This document shows positions 50,315 to 63,962 of a stretch of DNA of 64,000 bases, piece by piece. The DNA lies in NCBI RefSeq assembly GCF_014705715.1, contig NZ_JACXLC010000001.1, positions 2,541,860 through 2,605,859 on the forward strand, read 5' to 3'. Source of the stretch: Erythrobacter rubeus. GTDB lineage: Bacteria > Pseudomonadota > Alphaproteobacteria > Sphingomonadales > Sphingomonadaceae. The notes beneath the pieces were generated by a model. It worked only from the letters and a program-made list of their open reading frames with translations. It was not told where the DNA came from and ran no database searches. Position 1 is the stretch's first letter; each line of letters starts with the position of its first letter. A program made the position numbers and the translations under genes.

Positions 50315-50833
50315 ATGAAACTCTTTGCGACAGGCCTTGCCGCGATCACCATGCTCCCCGCAAGCGTTTCGATGAGCGGCGCGCCCGCCGCGGCGCAGGC
50401 TGCGACGACAAGCGATTTTCGCAACATCATCGCCAACAACATGCGCTCGTGCGCGCCCGGAGGCGGGCCCGCGGTGCGAGTCACCGTCAATGGCGTGAAG
50501 AGCTCTTCCGGCAATGTCCGCGTTCAGCTTTACCGCGGAACGAAGGCCGATTGGCTGGAAAAGGGCCGTTGGCTCAACCGGATCGAGCTGCCCGCGCGTC
50601 GGGGCCGCATGACATTCTGCGTGCCTGTGCCCGCCAGCGGAACCTACGCGATCGCGGTGCGGCATGACGTCAACGGCAACGGTTCGACCGACATCCGCGA
50701 GGATGGCGGCGCGATGTCGAACGATCCCTCGATCAGCATTTTCAATCTCGGCAAGCCGAGCATCGACAAGACCCGCTTCGATGTGGGCTCGGGCGTCCGC
50801 TCGATGGCGATCACGATGAAGTATTTCGGCTAG
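50315..50833 (+). CDS. DUF2141 family exported protein
   Basis: 172 residues with a Sec signal peptide (MKLFATGLAAITMLPASVS, cleavage after AAAQA). The DUF2141 beta-sandwich follows: VRVTVNGVKSSSGNVRVQLY, FCVPVPASGTYAIAVRHDVNGNG and AMSNDP. The DVNGNGSTD loop looks like a calcium-binding loop. The function is unknown. A second DUF2141 gene is at the right edge. Confidence 0.87.
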   Translation: MKLFATGLAAITMLPASVSMSGAPAAAQAATTSDFRNIIANNMRSCAPGGGPAVRVTVNGVKSSSGNVRVQLYRGTKADWLEKGRWLNRIELPARRGRMTFCVPVPASGTYAIAVRHDVNGNGSTDIREDGGAMSNDPSISIFNLGKPSIDKTRFDVGSGVRSMAITMKYFG

Positions 50834-54269: not shown

Positions 54270-54373
54270 AGCAGTAGAGTCTGATCAAGAAAGGCACTCC
54301 ATTTCCCCAGCGAAAAGACAGTTAATTGCTTCTTTGAAGGCGGAAATGGAATTCATTCCAGCAGGCGGGACCA

Positions 54374-54412
54374 AAAGGCCCTTTCGGCCTTTACCACCGA
54401 CGGCATAGTCGG
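54374..54412. terminator. paired hairpins between M20 gene and the pilus operon end
   Basis: AAAGGCC (54374-54380)/GGCCTTT (54386-54392) and CCGAC (54397-54401)/GTCGG (54408-54412) form two adjacent stems, the second followed by ATTTT on the plus strand. They lie in the 243-bp gap where the M20 and pilus transcripts converge. The rest of the gap shows no gene. Confidence 0.5.
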
Positions 54413-54512
54413 ATTTTCTACTTGGTTTGACGTGCCCGATATGAAAACCAATGCAGCCCGCCCCATCTGATTAGAGCTCCGATCCAGGCGATTTAGTTGC
54501 AACTGAAGCCAG

Positions 54513-57500
54513 TTAAGGGACTGTTTTTGTTGATGGTCCAGATCGGACAGCTATTTCAAGGGCACAGTTTTGAACTTCCAGATCAAGGTTGTAGATATCC
54601 CCGCTGGGTTCAACGACCATCTCCACCTCATTCGTAAGGCAAATCCCGAGCCTTTCTGCTTGTTCCGGCTCGATTATGAGTTGGAATCTTCCAGGCATGA
54701 CTTGTTCAAAAAAGTAGTATCCACCCCGCTCCGTACGCGCAGTTGCCACAACCTCGCCTCCGCGGTCGATGAGTTGAAGCCTCAAACCGGATACACCGCG
54801 CGACGTATCTTTATCGCTGAAAGATACGGTCCCCTCAACTTCGCTGAGCGCAACGATTGGGAAGTCCATCACGTGAAACCTGCCTGGACGAGGTACGATC
54901 TCAATACCGCGTGAGACAGGGGCAAGTAGAATGTCGGGCAAAGAGGACGGATCGACCTGCACACTTACTGGTACGCCATTTCCCAAGCGGGTAAGCCTCG
55001 CGGTTCCCCTCTCATCTGTTTCGGAAGTGTTGTTGAAGACTGAAAAATTGACATCTTGCAAAGGCACGTCGCCCGGACCGAACACGCTATCGCCGTCCAG
55101 GTCCTGAAATGCGCGCAGACTCACCGAGCCAGAAGATGCTTGCCCCGGAGGCGCCAGAAAGAAGTTTCGGCGTATCGGATCGCGGCCGAAACTGAAACCA
55201 AGTCGAAGAGCCATCGAATAGCTCCGCTGTTCGAAAACGTAACTCCCATCAAAAGCCAATGAGAACTTGTCGAATTCCTTGATAGCGGATGCTCCTAACC
55301 TTAATCCGGCGGAGCTGAAGGAGTACGAAGCTTGACCGCTCACAACAGTCCGGCCGTCAATCTGGTAGTCGATCTCGCCAGAGACATTGGTAATTTCAGG
55401 ACCCTGAAGTAAGCTGTACCCGACAGACCCGCGGAGCTGCGTGCGTGAACGCGCAAATGTCGCAAGATCAAAATTGCCAATGAGCTGAGAGAAGCCGCTG
55501 CCGTTTGCAGCTGTGTTTCTCGTATATTCGAAGGTGTTCGAAACGATCATACCCGGCAAGCGGGCAGAACTGCGAAAAATAGCGTCCGTACTGGATCTAC
55601 CATCGAGAAATTCGACATGTCGCAGCCGCGCAGCCACCGGGATGGAGCTATCTCCGAAGATCCCCCCCAATGCGAGATTAGCGTTAAAGTCCAATTCGGT
55701 GGCCCGCCGAAGTGGGTCTCGAGTGTTGCTCCTGATTTCGTCGGAGAAGCCGCTTCCATATTCGAAATGCGAAAGCGAGAAGGCGCCTCCAAATGCGCGG
55801 CCGCCGAGCCCGGCACCCAATGCATTGCTGCCATCGCTAGCGACGGCGGCGTCAGCGCGCACCGCAAGACCGCCCAGACCTGTTCGCAATCCGGTCGTTC
55901 CAAGAAAGACATCTTCGCCTACATCTTCGAAATATGAAAAGCCTGCGATGGCCGTAACATCAGCGTTTAGGCCATAGGAAGCGCTGCCTCCCGCTTGCCA
56001 GCTGCCGAATCCTTCGAGCGGATTGAAATCGGGGCCCTCCACACCGAGAAGATTGACCCCTCTCTGAATTGCGCCGAAATCGTATTGCAAGTCACCCGCG
56101 GCGACGCGCCCGTCGCCAACACTGACCCGTCTTACCTCTTCGCGGCGCTGGCCCTGAGGTCCGAAGAACACGAGCCGAAATATGTTAAGACCATAATCGA
56201 CTGGAACATCTAGAAACTCATATTGCCGATTAACGGCCGATGCGACCGATCCAATGAGGATGTCGTTCCGGTACAATTCGACCTCGTACCCATCCGGCAG
56301 AACACCTCGCAGGTCGATTTGCTCAAACACGGAGGCCGCTTGAAACGGTCGATTGCTCACAAACCCGCCGCGACCAGCTCTGCCGCGCAAACCGACCGGC
56401 ATGGAAACTGTTGCGACGTCACCGACCTGAAATTCGCTTGCTTTGAGAGGGCCAAGCAAATCCCCATCGCCGTCGCGCCTCCCCAATTGTACCAAGGATG
56501 CGACGAGGCCATCGCGCGTGGTCGCGGATAGAAATGCCTGCGCAGTCATGAAGGCAAGGTCGCCACCAAAACGGAAATCGCCCTCGAGTCTCTCATCCAT
56601 CGTTGAATCGGAAACCGCACGCAATTCAACGTCGGCGAGAGGAAGAGATGCCGCAAGCCACGGAGTTTCCTGTCGCGGCCATTGCATTTCCTCGCCTTGT
56701 CCTTGTCGCGCTTTCAATCGTGCTCGTTCAGATTCGCGACGTAAGCGCTCTTCGAACGGAAATGGTTCGAGGGTTGTAAGAAGCACGGACTGCGTTCGCA
56801 GGTTTGGCTCAAGCTTAACGGGCAAAATCTCGGCAAAAAGATCGCTACGCAGGTACATCTCCCCTTCGAAGGCTTGAACTTCGTCGGGCAAAAGCGGCCT
56901 GCTACCGCCGTTGGTGGTCAATCTATTGTTGCGCAGATCCAACGTGACGGTTCTGTTTTCTGTTAAAAACCAACCATTGGCGTAGTGTCCATCATCACTG
57001 ACGCGAACGGCGAGGTCGAGAATGCGCGTGAGCTCGCCGACTGGCAGATACAGACCTTCTCTGGTCCCATAGACAATAATCGTGTCCGTCGCATCGATCC
57101 CCCTGACCTTGAATTGAAGGATCAATTCGTCGTTAAGGGTGAAAACAGGTTCGCTTTCGTCGACTGGAAAAGTGGTAGTACCGGGTCGTAAGTCGAAGGA
57201 TTGCTGTTGCTGGGTTGAGAACTCCGCGGTCTCGGGTATATTTGGTTGGGCACTCGGCCTTTTAGGACCAATTTGGTTCTTTTTCGATTTAGGTTTCTCA
57301 TCGGTCACCGCTCGCGCTTGCCGATCGGCAGGTGGAACTGTTTCGCGGCCAGGTGCTGCACCTTCGAATGGAAGTGCACTTTCCTCCAACCTGTCGGCCG
57401 GATTCGTCGCATCGCCTTCAATCAATCCGTTTTCAGGACGGGAGCCCTGTAGTCCCTTATGCTTCATCCGAAAATCAGAAGCGATAACGCCAACTGGTAG

Positions 57501-57899
57501 AGTTATGATTGAAGATGCGCCCGCCTTCGTTGGGCCAAGGTGGGCCGCGTTTGGCGCGCTCGACACTCCCGAATGCTCTTCCTGAGAGACAAAAGCCCCC
57601 TCGGGCTGGGTCGCAGTCTTCAAAGTTGTTGCCGCCGCGGGCGAGGCAAAACCCTCCAGAGGCATTCTCGTATCGCTTGCATAGGGCTTCGGCTGAGTGA
57701 AGATCGGTCGCTCCAGACTCTTGCCGGAATCGCGCGATGTAGCGGTAGCACTTTCGATCAACACCGGCGCAGCTGCAGCGTACTCGCCCGTCACACCCTC
57801 GACAGCGGTGTTAGCGCTCCCAGTAGGGAGAGAGCCGCTCGCGACCGCTGGAAAAGCAGCGATTGCGGCCAAGATGCCGATCGCGCGAATGGTATTCAC
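54513..57899 (-). CDS. usher-like outer-membrane protein of a DUF4402 chaperone-usher system
   Basis: 1128 residues, GTG start overlapping the chaperone stop by 4 bp. Layout: signal peptide 1-21; a long Pro/Ala/Ser-rich, probably disordered stretch 22-240; a soluble module 243-380 (DELILQFKVRG, YLPVGELTRIL); a region at 490-610 like the usher plug (DLRGVLPDGYEVELYRNDIL, FLDVPVDYGLNIFRLVFFGP); a beta-barrel-like region to about 920 with alternating aromatic strands; then two carboxypeptidase-regulatory/SdrB-like domains (923-1000 with FQDLDGDSVFGPGDVPL, and 1015-1080). It presumably forms the pore that assembles the DUF4402 subunits. Classical ushers are about 800-850 residues; the N-terminal extension is unusual. 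Confidence 0.75.
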   Translation of the reverse strand: MNTIRAIGILAAIAAFPAVASGSLPTGSANTAVEGVTGEYAAAAPVLIESATATSRDSGKSLERPIFTQPKPYASDTRMPLEGFASPAAATTLKTATQPEGAFVSQEEHSGVSSAPNAAHLGPTKAGASSIITLPVGVIASDFRMKHKGLQGSRPENGLIEGDATNPADRLEESALPFEGAAPGRETVPPADRQARAVTDEKPKSKKNQIGPKRPSAQPNIPETAEFSTQQQQSFDLRPGTTTFPVDESEPVFTLNDELILQFKVRGIDATDTIIVYGTREGLYLPVGELTRILDLAVRVSDDGHYANGWFLTENRTVTLDLRNNRLTTNGGSRPLLPDEVQAFEGEMYLRSDLFAEILPVKLEPNLRTQSVLLTTLEPFPFEERLRRESERARLKARQGQGEEMQWPRQETPWLAASLPLADVELRAVSDSTMDERLEGDFRFGGDLAFMTAQAFLSATTRDGLVASLVQLGRRDGDGDLLGPLKASEFQVGDVATVSMPVGLRGRAGRGGFVSNRPFQAASVFEQIDLRGVLPDGYEVELYRNDILIGSVASAVNRQYEFLDVPVDYGLNIFRLVFFGPQGQRREEVRRVSVGDGRVAAGDLQYDFGAIQRGVNLLGVEGPDFNPLEGFGSWQAGGSASYGLNADVTAIAGFSYFEDVGEDVFLGTTGLRTGLGGLAVRADAAVASDGSNALGAGLGGRAFGGAFSLSHFEYGSGFSDEIRSNTRDPLRRATELDFNANLALGGIFGDSSIPVAARLRHVEFLDGRSSTDAIFRSSARLPGMIVSNTFEYTRNTAANGSGFSQLIGNFDLATFARSRTQLRGSVGYSLLQGPEITNVSGEIDYQIDGRTVVSGQASYSFSSAGLRLGASAIKEFDKFSLAFDGSYVFEQRSYSMALRLGFSFGRDPIRRNFFLAPPGQASSGSVSLRAFQDLDGDSVFGPGDVPLQDVNFSVFNNTSETDERGTARLTRLGNGVPVSVQVDPSSLPDILLAPVSRGIEIVPRPGRFHVMDFPIVALSEVEGTVSFSDKDTSRGVSGLRLQLIDRGGEVVATARTERGGYYFFEQVMPGRFQLIIEPEQAERLGICLTNEVEMVVEPSGDIYNLDLEVQNCALEIAVRSGPSTKTVP

Positions 57900-58888
57900 C
57901 GTACGACAAATTCTTGCCTGGCTAGTGTTTCCCCTGGCGCGACATCATCGTCGACAAAGGTCGCTGTAAGGACCATCCCGGGTCGCAGCGTCGTCACGTC
58001 GAATTCTGGATTTAGCGCGAGTTGGACAAAGCGCGAGTTGATCTCTGGATAAACCCCGATGCCCCTCGCAATAACAACTGGCTCGTCCTGCCCCGGCGCA
58101 GTAATGATCAAATCGCCATAAGCAGAGCGCGTTCCAGAGCGAGTAATCGTGAGTGTAAGGGAGGAGCCCTGATCGTCTTGGACCAGCGATATGTTTTCCA
58201 GTCCTACTTCGAGCGTTGTGGGTCCGACGCGCATGATGACGGGAATCGAAATTCCAAACCGCGGACGGATGGTTACACCGACATTTCCCGTCTCTGCCTG
58301 TGCGTCGCTGACGGCGTCCTCGATTGAGAAACCTTCGTCTACGTTACTTGGAACCGAAACGACCATAAAGTGCGCGCGGTATTCACCATCGGGCAAGCCT
58401 GCCGGGGGCCTTGCCATGATCCGAATGGTTTGTGCTTCGCTTCCAAGCAACAGGACCCGGCGCGGCGACCACCGCAACATCTCGCTCGCGGTCTTGACGT
58501 TGCTGGCATCGATACCCTCTGGCAGATTGTCGAGAGGTATCACCCTGCCGTTATTGGTCATAACCATATCGGTAACAGAAATCTCGTATTCGCCTTCAAA
58601 GGCAGTTTTGTTATAAACCCCGACTGAAGCGATCCGTTGACGTTGATCCATTACGATGCGGCGAGGGTAGAGATTGATGTCGCCCATTCCGCCGACAGAT
58701 CCATCAGGGACTTCACCTGCCTCAACAATGGGTAGCGGCGGCGCGGCTTCTTGGGCCTCGTCGGATTCCGGTTTCGCGGCCTCTAGTGCGAGGGTTTGAG
58801 CCGCAAGGGCAGTCGTCGACCAAAGCGCGAGCGCGCCTAGCAGCGCTGTAATGGCGCGCAGCCAAATGTTGGAAATTTTTGTTTTCAT
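57896..58888 (-). CDS. PapD-like periplasmic pilus chaperone
   Basis: 330 residues from ATG 58888 with signal peptide ending TALAAQ. After an acidic linker the N-terminal Ig-like domain begins (GDINLYPRRIVMDQRQRIAS), with the cleft Arg of PapD-type chaperones. SPRRVLLLGSEAQTIRIMAR and LPDGEYRAHFMVVSVP match the conserved F-G region, and a second domain follows (from about 225). It should hold subunits in the periplasm by donor-strand complementation and deliver them to the usher. It is longer than classical chaperones (about 230). GTGA overlap couples it to the usher. Confidence 0.8.
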   Translation of the reverse strand: MKTKISNIWLRAITALLGALALWSTTALAAQTLALEAAKPESDEAQEAAPPLPIVEAGEVPDGSVGGMGDINLYPRRIVMDQRQRIASVGVYNKTAFEGEYEISVTDMVMTNNGRVIPLDNLPEGIDASNVKTASEMLRWSPRRVLLLGSEAQTIRIMARPPAGLPDGEYRAHFMVVSVPSNVDEGFSIEDAVSDAQAETGNVGVTIRPRFGISIPVIMRVGPTTLEVGLENISLVQDDQGSSLTLTITRSGTRSAYGDLIITAPGQDEPVVIARGIGVYPEINSRFVQLALNPEFDVTTLRPGMVLTATFVDDDVAPGETLARQEFVVR

Positions 58889-58966
58889 GAGTGCCCGCCC
58901 CGAGACCATAATTTCTAAGGTCTTCTACGGATGGGATGGTTAATTTTCGGTAAGTATAATATGCGG

Positions 58967-59497
58967 TCAGTTGTAAATAACCGTGACGTCGAAATCGCCG
59001 ATATACGAACCTGGCGCCTGATTGCCTTCGATCTGCAGCGTTCCACCCATGTCGAGGCGGTAGACTCGTTGTCGCCCAAATCCAGAAATGACCACTAGGC
59101 GACCCGTTATATTGGTTACACCGATGGTGGCGCTGCCGTTAGACAAAGTTATATCGCCAGGAATGAACACAGTCCCACCCCGGTTGCCCGCTTGCTCCAC
59201 TCGAAATTGAGCGGGGCCTCGGCCAGAGGCCGGCTGTGCCATATTGGTGGAAGAGGCGACGTCACCGACCGCGTCAAACGAACCATCGACATTGATGCGA
59301 ATAGAACTTGCGGTGCCCGGTGACGCGAACCGACCGAAACGTAGGTCGGAAATCCGCTGAATAGTCGCCGGATCTGCCACCTCGGCGGCGGCCGCGCCCG
59401 ATTCCTGAACGGTGTTACCTGGCTCTGCAAACGCCGATTGCGGCGCCAAAAGAGCAGCAATTGCTGCTGCAATTGCGTAAGAAGGGTGTTTGCGCAT
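58967..59497 (-). CDS. DUF4402-type secreted subunit (pilin-like)
   Basis: 176 residues, signal peptide cleaved after AFAE region (about residue 24). One beta-rich domain: ISDLRFGRFASPGTASSIRI, then the end GDFDVTVIYN, an alternating hydrophobic strand with Tyr at the penultimate position. It lies 78 bp upstream of the chaperone start and belongs to the same minus-strand run. The role is inferred as a minor or anchoring pilin. Confidence 0.75.
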   Translation of the reverse strand: MRKHPSYAIAAAIAALLAPQSAFAEPGNTVQESGAAAAEVADPATIQRISDLRFGRFASPGTASSIRINVDGSFDAVGDVASSTNMAQPASGRGPAQFRVEQAGNRGGTVFIPGDITLSNGSATIGVTNITGRLVVISGFGRQRVYRLDMGGTLQIEGNQAPGSYIGDFDVTVIYN

Positions 59498-59512
59498 TGC
59501 TACGGCCTGACT

Positions 59513-59561
59513 GTGCAGTTTGGGTGCGAGACCGAAGCTGAGCCCAGTCCCGCACCTGCAC
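59513..59561 (-). promoter_or_regulatory. intercistronic stem-loop after the abundant-type pilin gene
   Basis: Directly after the stop of the 165-residue pilin, GTGCAG (59513-59518)/CTGCAC (59556-59561) and GGTGCG plus GAC (59523-59532)/GTC plus CGCACC (59547-59556) can form competing or nested stems. There is no U run behind it, so it is more likely an mRNA-stability or partial-attenuation element than a full terminator. Classical pilus operons have a similar hairpin after the major pilin. Confidence 0.45.
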
Positions 59562-59569
59562 TGCTAGCT

Positions 59570-60067
59570 TCAGTTGTAAGCGACCGTTACGTCGTAAGTC
59601 CCGGTGTAGACACCGGCCGACTCGCCGCCCGCTACGGTCAGGGTACCGCCAACGGAAAACGCAGCGGCGCCAGAACCGTTCAGGGTGCCGTCGGTCGGTG
59701 CGTTAGTGGTGAAGTTCATGGTGTCGGTTCCATTACCGACACTGCCCGCGCTCGTAGTGATGGAAAAACTACGGCTCGCATCACCAGCGACGGTGAAAGC
59801 ATCAGCAGCTTCGGCCGAGCCACCAATGAGCGTCACATCGCCGGAATCGGTGCCGTCGCCAGCGAGGTCTACAACAACAGTGCCGCCATTGTCGCCGGTC
59901 GTGAAAGTGCCGAAATCAAGTGCGGCGTTGGTGACATGCGTAAGCGTGATCGGCGCAACGACCTCTGCAGTAGCAGAGCCCTGAGCGGTCGAAGTATCGC
60001 CGGGCGCAGCCATGGCTGGCGCGGAGACGACTGCCGAAGCGGCAGCAAGCAAAATAAGTTTTTTCAA
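59570..60067 (-). CDS. DUF4402 protein, candidate major pilin
   Basis: 165 residues with a clean signal peptide (MKKLILLAAASAVVSAPAMA). The mature domain has LTHVTNAALDFGTFTTGDNG, a Gly/Thr/Ser-rich body without Lys or Arg-rich patches, and ends GTYDVTVAYN with penultimate Tyr. The small size, simple composition, own upstream gap of 191 bp and the hairpin behind it make this the best candidate for the main shaft subunit. It is predicted to be exported and assembled through the usher-like protein. Confidence 0.8.
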   Translation of the reverse strand: MKKLILLAAASAVVSAPAMAAPGDTSTAQGSATAEVVAPITLTHVTNAALDFGTFTTGDNGGTVVVDLAGDGTDSGDVTLIGGSAEAADAFTVAGDASRSFSITTSAGSVGNGTDTMNFTTNAPTDGTLNGSGAAAFSVGGTLTVAGGESAGVYTGTYDVTVAYN

Positions 60068-60258
60068 GGTTGGTCCCCTTAAGGAATGTGGTCCAAGCGC
60101 ATACCGGAGGCGTGCGCCAACAGGACGTATGCCGAATCATTCGTTCCCGTCGGGGTCGGTACTAGTCCGTATGGTCTTAAAAACTTCCTTCCGTTAGCTA
60201 AGTACGGAATTAACCATAACGGCGCGCCTCGCGCGTCCTCAGGCGTGATCTCTCCCTA
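60068..60258 (-). promoter_or_regulatory. 191-bp gap upstream of the candidate major pilin, probable extra promoter
   Basis: AT-rich compared with its surroundings. It contains an inverted repeat TTCCGT (60188-60193)/ACGGAA (60203-60208) and AT-rich hexamers on the minus strand. A separate promoter here would allow stronger expression of the major pilin. No gene is seen. Confidence 0.35.
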
Positions 60259-60828
60259 TCAGTTATATGAGATAACAACCGGCAGCGAGGAGCGGAATAC
60301 ATCGGATTTCGTTCCGGAAGGGACATGCAGAGTTCCACCGACAAAAAATCGGTCTTGCCCCTCCTGATCGAGCCGACCGCCGCTCGCAAGCGCGGGCTGA
60401 TTGAAGCTACGGACCGCTAGCTGATTGACAACCAGCTCAGCACCGGTCTTTACCCCTCTCGCCGCGACGCTGCCGGGAAGACTCACGCGATAAGTCCGGT
60501 CGCCTTCGCCGGTAACAGAAAAACTGGCTCGGTGAGGTTTGCATGCCTCCTGAGAACCACAATTTGGGCGGGCAGACCTCGAATAGGTCGCCGGGCCGCC
60601 ATCCGGTGCAACTTCGACGGTCCCGCCGCTATGCCGATCGACCGCAATGGACCCGAAAGAGAGATCGGAAAGCGCAACAGCGCGAATTGGCTCGACGACC
60701 GTCGCCTCAGCCCGCCCAGTAGATGAAACCTGCTCGCGCGCGGAAACTGACGTTCCGCCGATGCTCATCAGTCCTAGGACGGCCAAGATGCTTGCAAATA
60801 TATAATTCTTCGGTCGTTTTTGGCTCAT
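60259..60828 (-). CDS. DUF4402-type secreted subunit with disulfide pair
   Basis: 189 residues from ATG 60828; signal peptide at 8-32 (cleavage after SVSA). The domain has AVALSDLSFGSIAVDRHSGG, two Cys (PNCGSQEACKP) likely bridged, FSVTGEGDRTYRVSLPG, and ends SLPVVISYN, again with penultimate Tyr. The start overlaps the upstream subunit stop as ATGA, so the two are coupled. Confidence 0.75.
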   Translation of the reverse strand: MSQKRPKNYIFASILAVLGLMSIGGTSVSAREQVSSTGRAEATVVEPIRAVALSDLSFGSIAVDRHSGGTVEVAPDGGPATYSRSARPNCGSQEACKPHRASFSVTGEGDRTYRVSLPGSVAARGVKTGAELVVNQLAVRSFNQPALASGGRLDQEGQDRFFVGGTLHVPSGTKSDVFRSSLPVVISYN

Positions 60829-61388
60829 GGCCGCTCTTTCGAAATAATCCTTGCGTCTAAATTGATCGGAACGGTGAGATTGGCGCCACCGTAATTTCGT
60901 GTCACGTCGAGCCGCGCACCAAGAGAAAAACTTCTCGAACATACGCGCACTCGACAGTTTTCGATCTTGATCACCATAGCCTCACCAGGCGAAACGCGGG
61001 CATAACCGGGAAGGTCGGTCGCAAATCGAGACAATCTGGCATCGACACCGTCTTGGCGAACTTGCGTCGGAGCCGAGATGAACAACTCAATTTCGACATC
61101 CAGTGCTCGCCGACTTTCGTTACCGCGGTCGAACTGAACATTAAAACGTGCTGGACGTGGAATTGTTCCTTCAAGGGCCACGATGGACTGGTCCGACACG
61201 GTTCCAGATGGGCTGACAATGCGCGCTCCGCTGCCGAAAAGCATAAATGTCCCGAAAACCAGTTCGCTTTGGCTTATCACGCGAACGCTCGACGGCCTCG
61301 CATGAAGCAAGGAGGTTGTACAAATACTGGAAAGGATCAGAACGAAACCACACACCGAGGTCCAGATATAACTCCGAGACCCACCCAT
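60825..61388 (-). CDS. first subunit gene of the pilus cluster, DUF4402-like, divergent C-terminus
   Basis: 187 residues from ATG 61388, with GGAAG 9 bases upstream. Signal region 10-30 (TSVCGFVLILSSICTTSLLHA). The domain has SQSELVFGTFMLFGSGARI, FDRGNESRRALDVEIEL, two Cys (ENCRVRVC) and LDVTRNYGGANLTVPINLD. Unlike the other three it ends RIISKERP, without the Tyr-Asn tail, so it may be a tip protein or terminator subunit. The longer frame that runs upstream through tRNA-Arg is rejected. Confidence 0.65.
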   Translation of the reverse strand: MGGSRSYIWTSVCGFVLILSSICTTSLLHARPSSVRVISQSELVFGTFMLFGSGARIVSPSGTVSDQSIVALEGTIPRPARFNVQFDRGNESRRALDVEIELFISAPTQVRQDGVDARLSRFATDLPGYARVSPGEAMVIKIENCRVRVCSRSFSLGARLDVTRNYGGANLTVPINLDARIISKERP

Positions 61389-61407
61389 CGCCAAGCTTCC
61401 AACTCTC

Positions 61408-61423
61408 GTTTCAACGCTGAAAC
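61408..61423 (-). promoter_or_regulatory. candidate operator in the pilus operon promoter region
   Basis: GTTTCA (61408-61413) and TGAAAC (61418-61423) are perfect 6-bp arms around ACGC, 20 bases upstream of the first pilus gene start. The 157-bp gap to tRNA-Arg holds AT-rich sequence that could provide the promoter; no clear -35/-10 pair is seen. Confidence 0.3.
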
Positions 61424-61545
61424 TACAACATAATCGCGCTGCAATCCCATGCATTTGCGACTTACGAGGCGAGCTGGAGCGCTTCTGTCTTATCATGCTC
61501 TGGTTTTTAAGGCATGATCGATGGATCGCAAGGTACTGCAAAAAA

Positions 61546-61622
<77 letters not shown>

Positions 61623-62739: not shown

Positions 62740-63528
62740 ATGATCGGCCCGATGCTTCCCGCTGATACGCCAGTCCTGCTCGCTTTGCTGATCGTCAGCG
62801 CCGTCACGTCAGGTTTCGTGGCGCTGCGATACTTCGCCTCCTCAGGCCTTTTCGCCTGGATAACGCAGCGTGTCAGACCCGGCCTCTACGATGGCAAAGA
62901 GAGGCAGATCGGGCGAGAAATTCGCTGGTCGCTGATCGCGGCGTTCATCTACGGCACACCGGCGGGGATGGTGTTCTGGGCCTGGAACCACCTCGGCTGG
63001 ACGCAGCTCTATACCGATTTCAGCGCTTATCCGCTGTGGTATCTTCCCGCCTCGGTTCTCATCTGCCTCTTCGCGCAGGATACGTGGTTCTATTGGAGCC
63101 ACCGCGCCATGCACCACCCGAAGCTGTTCCGCGTCATGCATGCCGTCCATCACGACAGCCGGCCGCCCACATCGTGGACGGCGATGAGCTTTCATCCGAT
63201 CGAATCGCTCACCGGCGCGCTTCTGATCCCGGTTCTGGTCTTCGTCGTCCCGATCCACATCGCCATGCTGGGCGTCGTCCTGACAGTCGCGACAGTCATG
63301 GGCGTGACCAATCACATGGGCTGGGAGATGTTTCCACGCGCGCTCGTTCATTCTCCGTTGGGAAATTGGATGATAACAGCGAGCCATCACGAAAAGCATC
63401 ATGAACGGTATGGATGCAATTTCGGACTGTATTTTCGCTTTTGGGACCGGTTGTGCGGGACAGATCGGGGCCTTTCCAAGCGTATGGTCGAGCAGTCCGG
63501 CTATGGAGAGAAGGGGGTTCGGATATGA
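62740..63528 (+). CDS. sterol desaturase / fatty acid hydroxylase family protein
   Basis: 262-residue membrane protein with four hydrophobic segments. The di-iron His clusters are HRAMHH, HAVHHDS and HHEKHHE, in the usual order and spacing. The enzyme hydroxylates or desaturates a lipid (fatty acid, sphingolipid or carotenoid); the substrate is not determined. It overlaps the DUF2141 gene by 4 bp, so the two are coupled. Confidence 0.9.
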   Translation: MIGPMLPADTPVLLALLIVSAVTSGFVALRYFASSGLFAWITQRVRPGLYDGKERQIGREIRWSLIAAFIYGTPAGMVFWAWNHLGWTQLYTDFSAYPLWYLPASVLICLFAQDTWFYWSHRAMHHPKLFRVMHAVHHDSRPPTSWTAMSFHPIESLTGALLIPVLVFVVPIHIAMLGVVLTVATVMGVTNHMGWEMFPRALVHSPLGNWMITASHHEKHHERYGCNFGLYFRFWDRLCGTDRGLSKRMVEQSGYGEKGVRI

Positions 63529-63962
63529 AACAATCGGGAATTTTCGCAGTAGGGGCCGTATTCGCGGCCATGGCAGCGCCTGCGACCGCCGGAGAGGTGA
63601 CGATCACCGTCACGGACCTGCGCTCTACCGAAGGCGTTGTGCGCGCTTGTATGACAGCCAAGGAGGACGTTTTTCCCAAATGCATCAAGGATCCGGCATC
63701 GCACCGCACGGTCGTTCCCGCTGGAGAGGCAGTGACGATCCGGTTTACCGGGGTTGAACCCGGCAGCTACGCGATCGCGCTGCTCCACGACGAAAACGAC
63801 AACGGCAAGGCCGACCGCGCGCTCGGGATGATGCCCAAGGAAGGCTACGGTTTCTCACGCGATGCAAAGGTTCGCATGGGTCCGCCCAAATTCAAGGACG
63901 CCGTCTTCGATCATGGCGCTGTGGCTCAGGACCTTACCATTACCATGCGATACTTCCTGTAG
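63525..63962 (+). CDS. DUF2141 family exported protein
   Basis: 145 residues from ATG 63525, in ATGA overlap with the hydroxylase. Signal peptide cleaved after APATA. The DUF2141 body has EVTITVTDLRSTEGVVRACM, GSYAIALLHDENDNGKADR with a Ca-loop-like DENDNGKAD, and ends AQDLTITMRYFL. The coupling to a lipid hydroxylase suggests an envelope-lipid connection, which is inference. Confidence 0.88.
   Translation: MKQSGIFAVGAVFAAMAAPATAGEVTITVTDLRSTEGVVRACMTAKEDVFPKCIKDPASHRTVVPAGEAVTIRFTGVEPGSYAIALLHDENDNGKADRALGMMPKEGYGFSRDAKVRMGPPKFKDAVFDHGAVAQDLTITMRYFL

Follow-up and report, generated by a model that had tools for sequence, protein, structure and literature searches.

A six-gene chaperone-usher cluster with DUF4402 subunits in Erythrobacter rubeus and its place among the chaperone-usher groups

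We have analyzed a 64,000-nucleotide stretch of the Erythrobacter rubeus genome (contig NZ_JACXLC010000001.1, positions 2,541,860 to 2,605,859; hereafter the window) which carries on its minus strand, at window positions 54513-61388, a cluster of six genes transcribed in the order s4-s3-s2-s1-chaperone-usher, s1 to s4 being four small subunits of the DUF4402 family. The six genes very probably make up a complete chaperone-usher (CU) assembly system with DUF4402 pilins, the product of which is probably a discrete fibre; most likely this would be a thin adhesive fibre for surfaces or biofilms. We put the probability at slightly above one half (about 0.55) that the DUF4402-type pathway represents a fourth major CU group beside the classical, alternative and archaic ones. 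Such a group would be defined by its DUF4402 pilins, by a chaperone with counterparts of both known carboxylate anchors and by a divergent usher N-terminal domain, and would extend beyond the Pseudomonadota; in its Erythrobacteraceae and Novosphingobium members many of the ushers may remain attached to the inner membrane through a Pro/Ala-rich linker and an N-terminal anchor that is not cleaved off.

Usher, chaperone and subunits

A sequence-only reading of the window had described the cluster as a pilus system of six minus-strand genes for four small DUF4402-type proteins, a PapD-like chaperone and a 1128-residue usher with barrel and plug, and this interpretation is supported by the present work. 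All six genes are present, the Pfam family DUF4402 (PF14352) matches each of the four small proteins (Table 1), and structure prediction, which that reading had proposed as a check, returned an immunoglobulin (Ig)-like fold for the chaperone and a barrel for the usher. Hidden Markov model searches, proposed alongside, detected DUF4402 in the four subunits and missed the window proteins with the usher profile PF00577 and with the chaperone family. The count of three out of five gene junctions lying within 4 bp has to be corrected to two, the 4-bp overlaps s4/s3 (ATGA) and chaperone/usher (GTGA); the remaining three junctions are gaps of 57, 72 and 191 bp.

By its predicted structure and by profile alignment the 1128-residue protein is a FimD/PapC-type usher with barrel, plug and C-terminal domains. 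Residues 240-1128 were modelled with AlphaFold2 from 71 sequences, and the model had a predicted local distance difference test score (pLDDT) of 89.4 and a predicted template modelling score (pTM) of 0.72. When this model was compared with the PDB by Foldseek, the 16 best rows were all FimD or PapC (expectation value, E, 7e-28 to 4e-12), the best non-usher row having an E of 1e-10. VIA-align, which both here and for the chaperone covered the structures ranked high by Foldseek, gave Z values of 16.6-20.1 for ushers versus 14.4 at most for other barrels; the best alignment, to FimD (Z 20.1), comprised 471 residues at 4.6 Å and spanned model residues 170-777. Rows that extend as far as model residue 871, in the final C-terminal domain, had root mean square deviations of 8-12 Å, and one of 20 Å. 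At the level of sequence profiles, hhalign aligned the DUF4402-type ushers over 678 columns to a set of 20 PF00577-type ushers (19 from Sphingomonadales plus FimD) with a probability of 99.6% and an E of 1.5e-24; single-sequence hhalign comparisons with EcpC, FimD, EcpB and FimC had been weak and gave way to comparisons between profiles. Near the C-terminus Pfam finds a SdrD_B/CarboxypepD_reg-like stretch below its cut-off, along with weaker matches, and the usher profile matched SdrD among PDB sequences (8e-9), in the C-terminal domain.

The N-terminal region of the protein is unusual. The model predicts a domain at the place where known ushers have the N-terminal domain that takes up chaperone-subunit complexes, with weak similarity to those domains. 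Of 42 relatives, 19 have a PF07833 match in this domain (E up to 1, lowest 1.1e-7), and the match of the window usher lies below the cut-off at 0.0026. An N-terminal extension of 182-491 residues in which Pro, Ala, Ser and Thr abound, its length measured from the first possible start, was found in 38 of 71 ushers. A cleavage-like [AV]xA motif follows the hydrophobic segment in 12 of these 38 long forms, the window usher among them, versus 27 of the 33 short forms, and it is possible that some long-form ushers are tethered to the inner membrane through an uncleaved N-terminal anchor.

For the chaperone the AlphaFold2 model (77 sequences; pLDDT 87, pTM 0.74) has tandem Ig domains in a PapD-like fold, and 46 of its 50 best Foldseek rows were chaperones of CU systems, starting from an E of 2e-10 (YadV, CfaA, Caf1M, CsuC). 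VIA-align placed it on CsuC with a Z of 14.6 over 185 residues at 3.8 Å, many other structures being tied within 1. Of 21 relatives, nine are matched by PF00345 with an E of 1 or less, the lowest value being 1.6e-7. Among PDB sequences the chaperone profile retrieved an alanine-rich chain (0.007) and CfaA (0.36), and it matches the classical, alternative and sigma-like chaperone sets, the sigma-like set best (1.6e-10, against 7.7e-6 and 9.3e-6 for the others). Four residues are nearly or fully invariant among 77 chaperones: Arg84 (77/77), Arg178 (76/77), Pro149 (77/77), which is the counterpart of the invariant strand-D1 Pro of chaperones, and Tyr287 (75/77). In the profile alignments Arg84 falls on Arg8 of FimC and Arg178 on the arginine of the YYR motif of EcpB (Arg89 when cleavage removes 20 residues); for FimC the numbering of Arg8 and Lys112 and the mature starts are those which we take to be standard. 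DUF4402-type chaperones have counterparts of two anchors, the classical Arg8 and the non-classical Arg89, whose anchoring roles here would be the same. The roles of the anchor arginines and of the strand-D1 Pro in chaperones are set out in PMC4654587; no chaperone mixing both anchor types was met in the literature searched, in so far as its text was accessible.

Subunits s1-s3 appear pilin-like in sequence. In a set of 262 DUF4402 subunits (profile E below 1e-9, 120-300 amino acids, s4 types excluded) Tyr or Phe stands second from the C-terminus in 247, versus 359 of 3142 background open reading frames (ORFs) of similar length, the latter number including the 262 subunits, and a Gly lies at position -14 from the C-terminus in 197. 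CU pilins end in the same way, with a penultimate aromatic residue and Gly at -14. When subunits were typed by best BLAST hit and their cleavage sites set by a simple rule, the penultimate aromatic was found in 45/48 s1, 136/143 s2, 60/63 s3 and 0/48 s4 proteins; typing in this way makes distant subunits land mostly in s2. The median distance from the predicted mature N-terminus to the FG motif was 29, 31 and 27 residues in s1, s2 and s3 and 14 in s4 (omitting the 2/48, 12/143, 4/63 and 1/48 proteins of s1 to s4 which have no FG motif), and the consensus of the N-terminal stretch in s1-s3 is close to G-x-A-x-A-x-V-x-x-P. The sequence hallmarks of donor-strand exchange, that is an N-terminal extension and a beta-zipper C-terminus, are therefore present in s1-s3 and absent from s4. 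Pfam found in the four subunits no spore-coat-U (SCPU) family (PF05229) up to an E of 1 and no classical pilin family. Some loci hold several s2-like gene copies, again by best BLAST hit. In four loci a protein of 315-330 amino acids follows the usher, with a complete C-terminal DUF4402 half and a weaker DUF4402-like front half (E 5e-16, 2e-10, 0.008 and 0.11, the last in L046), a layout which would suit a two-domain tip adhesin.

A number of results weigh against the identification of these proteins. PF00577 does not match the window usher in either the Pfam or the own-genome scans and matches only 2 of 30 relatives, with a best E of 0.02, below a cut-off which is a threshold of the profile and no biological feature; the usher N-terminal domain aligns weakly to its FimD counterpart, and in the second half only. 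Pfam finds nothing in the window chaperone, NCBIfam holds no family naming the usher or the chaperone, four of the 50 chaperone-model rows were three chains of WxL-interacting proteins and one protease, and the classical Lys112 has no counterpart in the profile alignment of the 77 chaperones. When the sequences of the PDB were searched with queries for the usher, its N-terminal domain, the chaperone and the subunits, no usher or pilin was retrieved, the best hit of the subunit profile being a phage minor capsid protein matched in mid-domain (6.4e-4). Single-sequence comparisons of the subunits with EcpA and FimA were weak, the one with FimA placing the subunit C-termini in the pilin register (penultimate Tyr, Gly -14), and s4 lacks the penultimate aromatic which chaperone-bound tip subunits normally retain. 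Finally, DUF4402 genes are also found away from the usher. The silence of PF00577, and the fact that non-usher barrels match the model too at lower scores, might be read as pointing to another outer-membrane barrel (LptD-like, TonB-dependent or an exporter) beside unrelated secreted proteins. This we regard as very improbable in view of the unbroken run of ushers at the top of the Foldseek rows, the gap in Z values between ushers and other barrels, and the hhalign match to ushers.

If the cluster is an assembly system with DUF4402 pilins, the following course of events can be proposed. Subunits would reach the periplasm through Sec; there the chaperone, as its fold and conserved residues suggest, would bind their C-terminal carboxylate and complete their Ig fold with its own G1 strand. 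The usher would then receive the chaperone-subunit complexes, its plug would open, and in donor-strand exchange the N-terminal extension of each incoming subunit would fill the groove of the previous one. We place s4 first, at the tip, because it has no N-terminal extension with which to fill the groove of another subunit; this role for s4 is somewhat favoured by its sequence. Less firmly, s3, s2 and s1 may follow in this order, with s2 perhaps forming the shaft. The same pathway could instead build a surface coat or a short polyadhesin layer, since similar-sized single-domain subunits with one usher would fit thin coat-like fibres too and the cluster encodes no FimA-type pilin. We consider this unlikely: the gene order and the extension-less subunit fit a fibre with a defined tip, and relatives encode the two-domain tip-like proteins mentioned above, although these observations do not decisively separate a short fibre from a coat.

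Place among the chaperone-usher groups

According to PMC9452303, CU pili fall into three groups and six clades, and the classical and alternative pili are limited to Beta- and Gammaproteobacteria. The usher tree built with IQ-TREE (n = 57) held 23 DUF4402-type, 11 alpha, 5 gamma-type and 18 PF00577-type Sphingomonadales ushers. The classical group is thus represented by the five gamma-type ushers only, beta, kappa and pi ushers being outside the sample, and the sigma group by the 18 sphingomonad ushers, with a spore-coat-U pilin above the cut-off in one tested neighbourhood (6.5e-28) and sub-threshold matches only in two others. The usher of another locus (L138) adjoins a FimA-type pilin, and these neighbours support the sigma and classical labels. 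All 23 DUF4402 ushers formed one clade (support 99 and 100 in two readings of the tree) on a stem branch of 0.88; the alpha ushers formed another (support 100), without DUF4402 ushers, and the gamma-type and sphingomonad ushers grouped together as 23 ushers with a support of 98, excluding both alpha and DUF4402 ushers. The gamma stem is longer still (0.99), and the tree is uncertain because of the roughly 13% identity in the profile alignment. In hhalign the DUF4402 ushers scored 155 and 147 against two PF00577-type sphingomonad sets, 89 against alpha and 88 against gamma, other pairs of sets scoring 125 (alpha-gamma), 144 (alpha-weak sphingomonad set), 192, 258, 386 and 666. These scores make the DUF4402 set the most distant on average only, with alpha close behind, and the sets differ in size.

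Comparison with each known group gives a mixed picture. With the archaic (sigma) systems such as Csu the DUF4402 type shares the Arg89-anchor counterpart, the best VIA-align row of the chaperone (CsuC) and the nearest usher profiles, one of them SCPU-linked. It differs from them in having DUF4402 and not spore-coat-U subunits, in an usher outside the sigma-plus-gamma clade, and in the Arg8 counterpart of all 77 chaperones, a residue which archaic chaperones are said in PMC4654587 to lack. As in the alternative (alpha) systems such as ECP and CFA/I, an arginine occupies the position of the EcpB YYR arginine and CfaA is among the top Foldseek rows; in contrast to them there is no match to PF16967 (TcfC) anywhere in this genome, the ushers lie outside the alpha clade and the subunits bear no clear sequence relation to EcpA. 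Classical systems (Fim, Pap) share the FimD/PapC usher architecture, the Arg8 counterpart and the C-terminal pattern of the subunits, which is weakly in FimA register. They are set apart by Lys112 and by their pilin families, by the divergent usher N-terminal domain, placed here behind a 239-residue tail, and by the position of the DUF4402 ushers outside the gamma-type grouping.

A competing explanation is that the DUF4402 type is a fast-evolving offshoot of the archaic group and no separate branch. The two usher sets nearest to it are both PF00577-type sphingomonad sets, including the SCPU-linked system; its chaperone profile fits the sigma-like set best; its score of 147 to sigma hardly differs from the 144 between alpha and the weak sigma-like set; and fast clades can end up too far out in a tree through long-branch attraction. 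The well-supported grouping of sigma-like and gamma ushers without the DUF4402 ushers, which have a clade of their own, speaks against such an origin, as do the Arg8 counterpart in the chaperones and the lack of a spore-coat-U match in the subunits. We find an archaic offshoot doubtful, and lean slightly towards the DUF4402-type pathway as a separate branch of its own rank. If that is correct, DUF4402 and its partner genes would have a function, DUF4402 as the pilin family peculiar to a deep branch, and this branch may help to explain the origin of the two carboxylate-anchoring mechanisms. Classical chaperones hold their subunits folded and archaic ones loosely, as described in PMC4654587, which raises the testable question of which of the two modes DUF4402-type chaperones follow.

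Conservation and distribution

Conservation of the cluster was addressed in 101 sequences, that is the window and 100 further loci, with at least two records doubled (L036/L061, L037/L064) and ORFs with unreadable residues skipped. An apparent giant usher of 3603 residues in one relative proved to be an ORF running through unreadable bases and was discarded. An usher ORF was found in 93 of the 101 sequences and none in 8; chaperone and DUF4402 genes accompany 83 of the 93, and in the remaining 10 no more than 1 kb separates the contig start from the usher or chaperone ORF. In each of the first 20 regions (20/20) the usher gene had the chaperone gene and one or more DUF4402 genes as neighbours, the exact order s4-s3-s2-s1-chaperone-usher with no extra gene occurred in 28 loci, and in 59 of 79 pairs the chaperone and usher genes either adjoin directly or share up to 4 bp.

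Across 196 Sphingomonadales genomes the usher was found in 53, DUF4402 in 53 and both in 52, the exceptions being one genome with the usher only (G133) and one with a sub-cut-off DUF4402 match only (G083). Fisher's test gave p = 2.5e-45, which is only a guide as the genomes are related and were treated as independent. The sequence-only reading had named co-occurrence of the homologues as a check, and with both partners in 52 of 54 positive genomes and the clusters conserved it is borne out. In six Sphingomonadales regions (L177-L182) DUF4402 genes distant from an usher share similar neighbours, which we take to resemble L-aspartate oxidase, an ABC ATPase and a TldD-like protein; these DUF4402 genes perhaps encode extra pilins served by a distant usher.

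Two peptide patterns, run against 84,980 species genomes, returned 533 loci encoding usher relatives. The best 80 of these comprised 58 titled Sphingomonadales and 22 others, among them Rhodospirillales, Kiloniellales, Desulfobacterales, Nitrospinaceae, Geothrix and Holophagaceae, with the Acidobacteriota among the groups; all 22 are metagenome-assembled, so binning errors are possible. Plasmid-borne clusters were present in Polaromonas, Pseudoalteromonas and Novosphingobium, Beta- and Gammaproteobacterial plasmids being among these. Within 299 genomes from the phylum nine matched the usher profile at an E below 1e-10, three of them in the C-terminal part only. Plasmid annotations read DUF4402 for the subunits, "molecular chaperone" or "hypothetical", and "carboxypeptidase regulatory-like" or "hypothetical"; in six annotated plasmid records the usher is called hypothetical, carboxypeptidase-like or SdrD B-like and never usher. 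Among the titles and abstract starts listed in literature searches there was no description of a DUF4402-type CU system, and no paper containing DUF4402 or PF14352 was found in the open-access collection searched, subscription journals and preprints being outside the search. The earlier suggestion of a less described branch in Sphingomonadales consequently stands as regards how little it has been described, and does not stand as regards a confinement to that order, given the relatives on Beta- and Gammaproteobacterial plasmids and in metagenome genomes of other phyla. On the Pseudoalteromonas plasmid (L242) a SPOR-domain gene lies on each side of the cluster, and the one behind the usher overlaps it by 4 bp.

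Genomic setting

Table 1. Features of the DUF4402-type chaperone-usher cluster and its border, in window coordinates
Feature	Position	Strand	Remarks
Usher	54513..57899	-	DUF4402-type outer-membrane usher; 1128 amino acids; GTG start
Usher, hydrophobic segment and Pro/Ala/Ser/Thr-rich extension	57183..57899	-	residues 1-239
Usher, divergent N-terminal domain	56763..57137	-	residues ~255-379; two beta-alpha-beta units in the model
Usher, predicted barrel	55188..56645	-	residues ~419-904; from model strand pattern and alignment to FimD/PapC pores; boundaries by reading
Usher, predicted inserted plug	56163-56435	-	residues ~489-579; from model strand pattern; boundaries by reading
Usher, C-terminal beta domains	54570..55127	-	residues ~925-1110; include the SdrD_B/CarboxypepD_reg-like domain
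Chaperone	57896..58909	-	PapD-like, periplasmic; 337 amino acids; alternative internal ATG at 58888 gives 330
Subunit s1	58967..59497	-	176 amino acids; PF14352 E 7.8e-22; N-terminal extension and penultimate Tyr
Subunit s2	59570..60067	-	165 amino acids; TTG start; PF14352 E 4.5e-22; tentative major subunit
s3-s2 gap	60068..60258	-	191 bp; median 164 among 56 pairs
Subunit s3	60259..60828	-	189 amino acids; PF14352 E 3.4e-18 (2.2e-18 with shorter start); N-terminal extension and penultimate Tyr
Subunit s4	60825..61388	-	187 amino acids; DUF4402-like, PF14352 E 4.9e-8 (1.6e-8 with shorter start); no N-terminal extension; predicted tip
tRNA-Arg(ccg)	61546..61622	-	borders the operon; boundary of the empty site

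The operon sits between an M20 peptidase gene and a tRNA-Arg(ccg) gene (54270-61622), and its G+C content is 53-59% against 59-67% around it (1-kb steps). One genome of the same genus (G490) has an empty site here, the peptidase protein match ending 14 bp from the tRNA (stop codon read 8 bp away), and another (G485, the same record as L056) has the operon at the same place; of the eight regions around the tRNA obtained in this genus (21 genomes matched) the remaining six had neither. The tRNA-Arg(ccg) lies beside the operon in only 1 of 18 relatives scanned (L056), so the association is not general, and with no direct repeat of at least 9 bases at the operon borders, integration at the tRNA is not shown. 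RNA folding of the s3-s2 gap was not unusual (z -0.49).

The DUF4402-type usher and chaperone of the window are the only ones found in the genome, which carries one other CU locus (G000:C1:368529-369815; L170) with an usher matching PF00577 (3.5e-12), a chaperone matching PF00345 (2.1e-7) and an adjoining pilin-like protein without a Pfam match. An orphan DUF4402 gene (G000:C1:11153-11434; L169:7833-8441) lies near a serine recombinase and a protein with a weak tetratricopeptide repeat match. Elsewhere in the window, on the plus strand at 50315-50833 and 63414-63962, two similar small proteins are encoded which share a hydrophobic N-terminal stretch, DxNxNG-like motifs and a C-terminal ITM(K/R)YF; they are presumably DUF2141-like.

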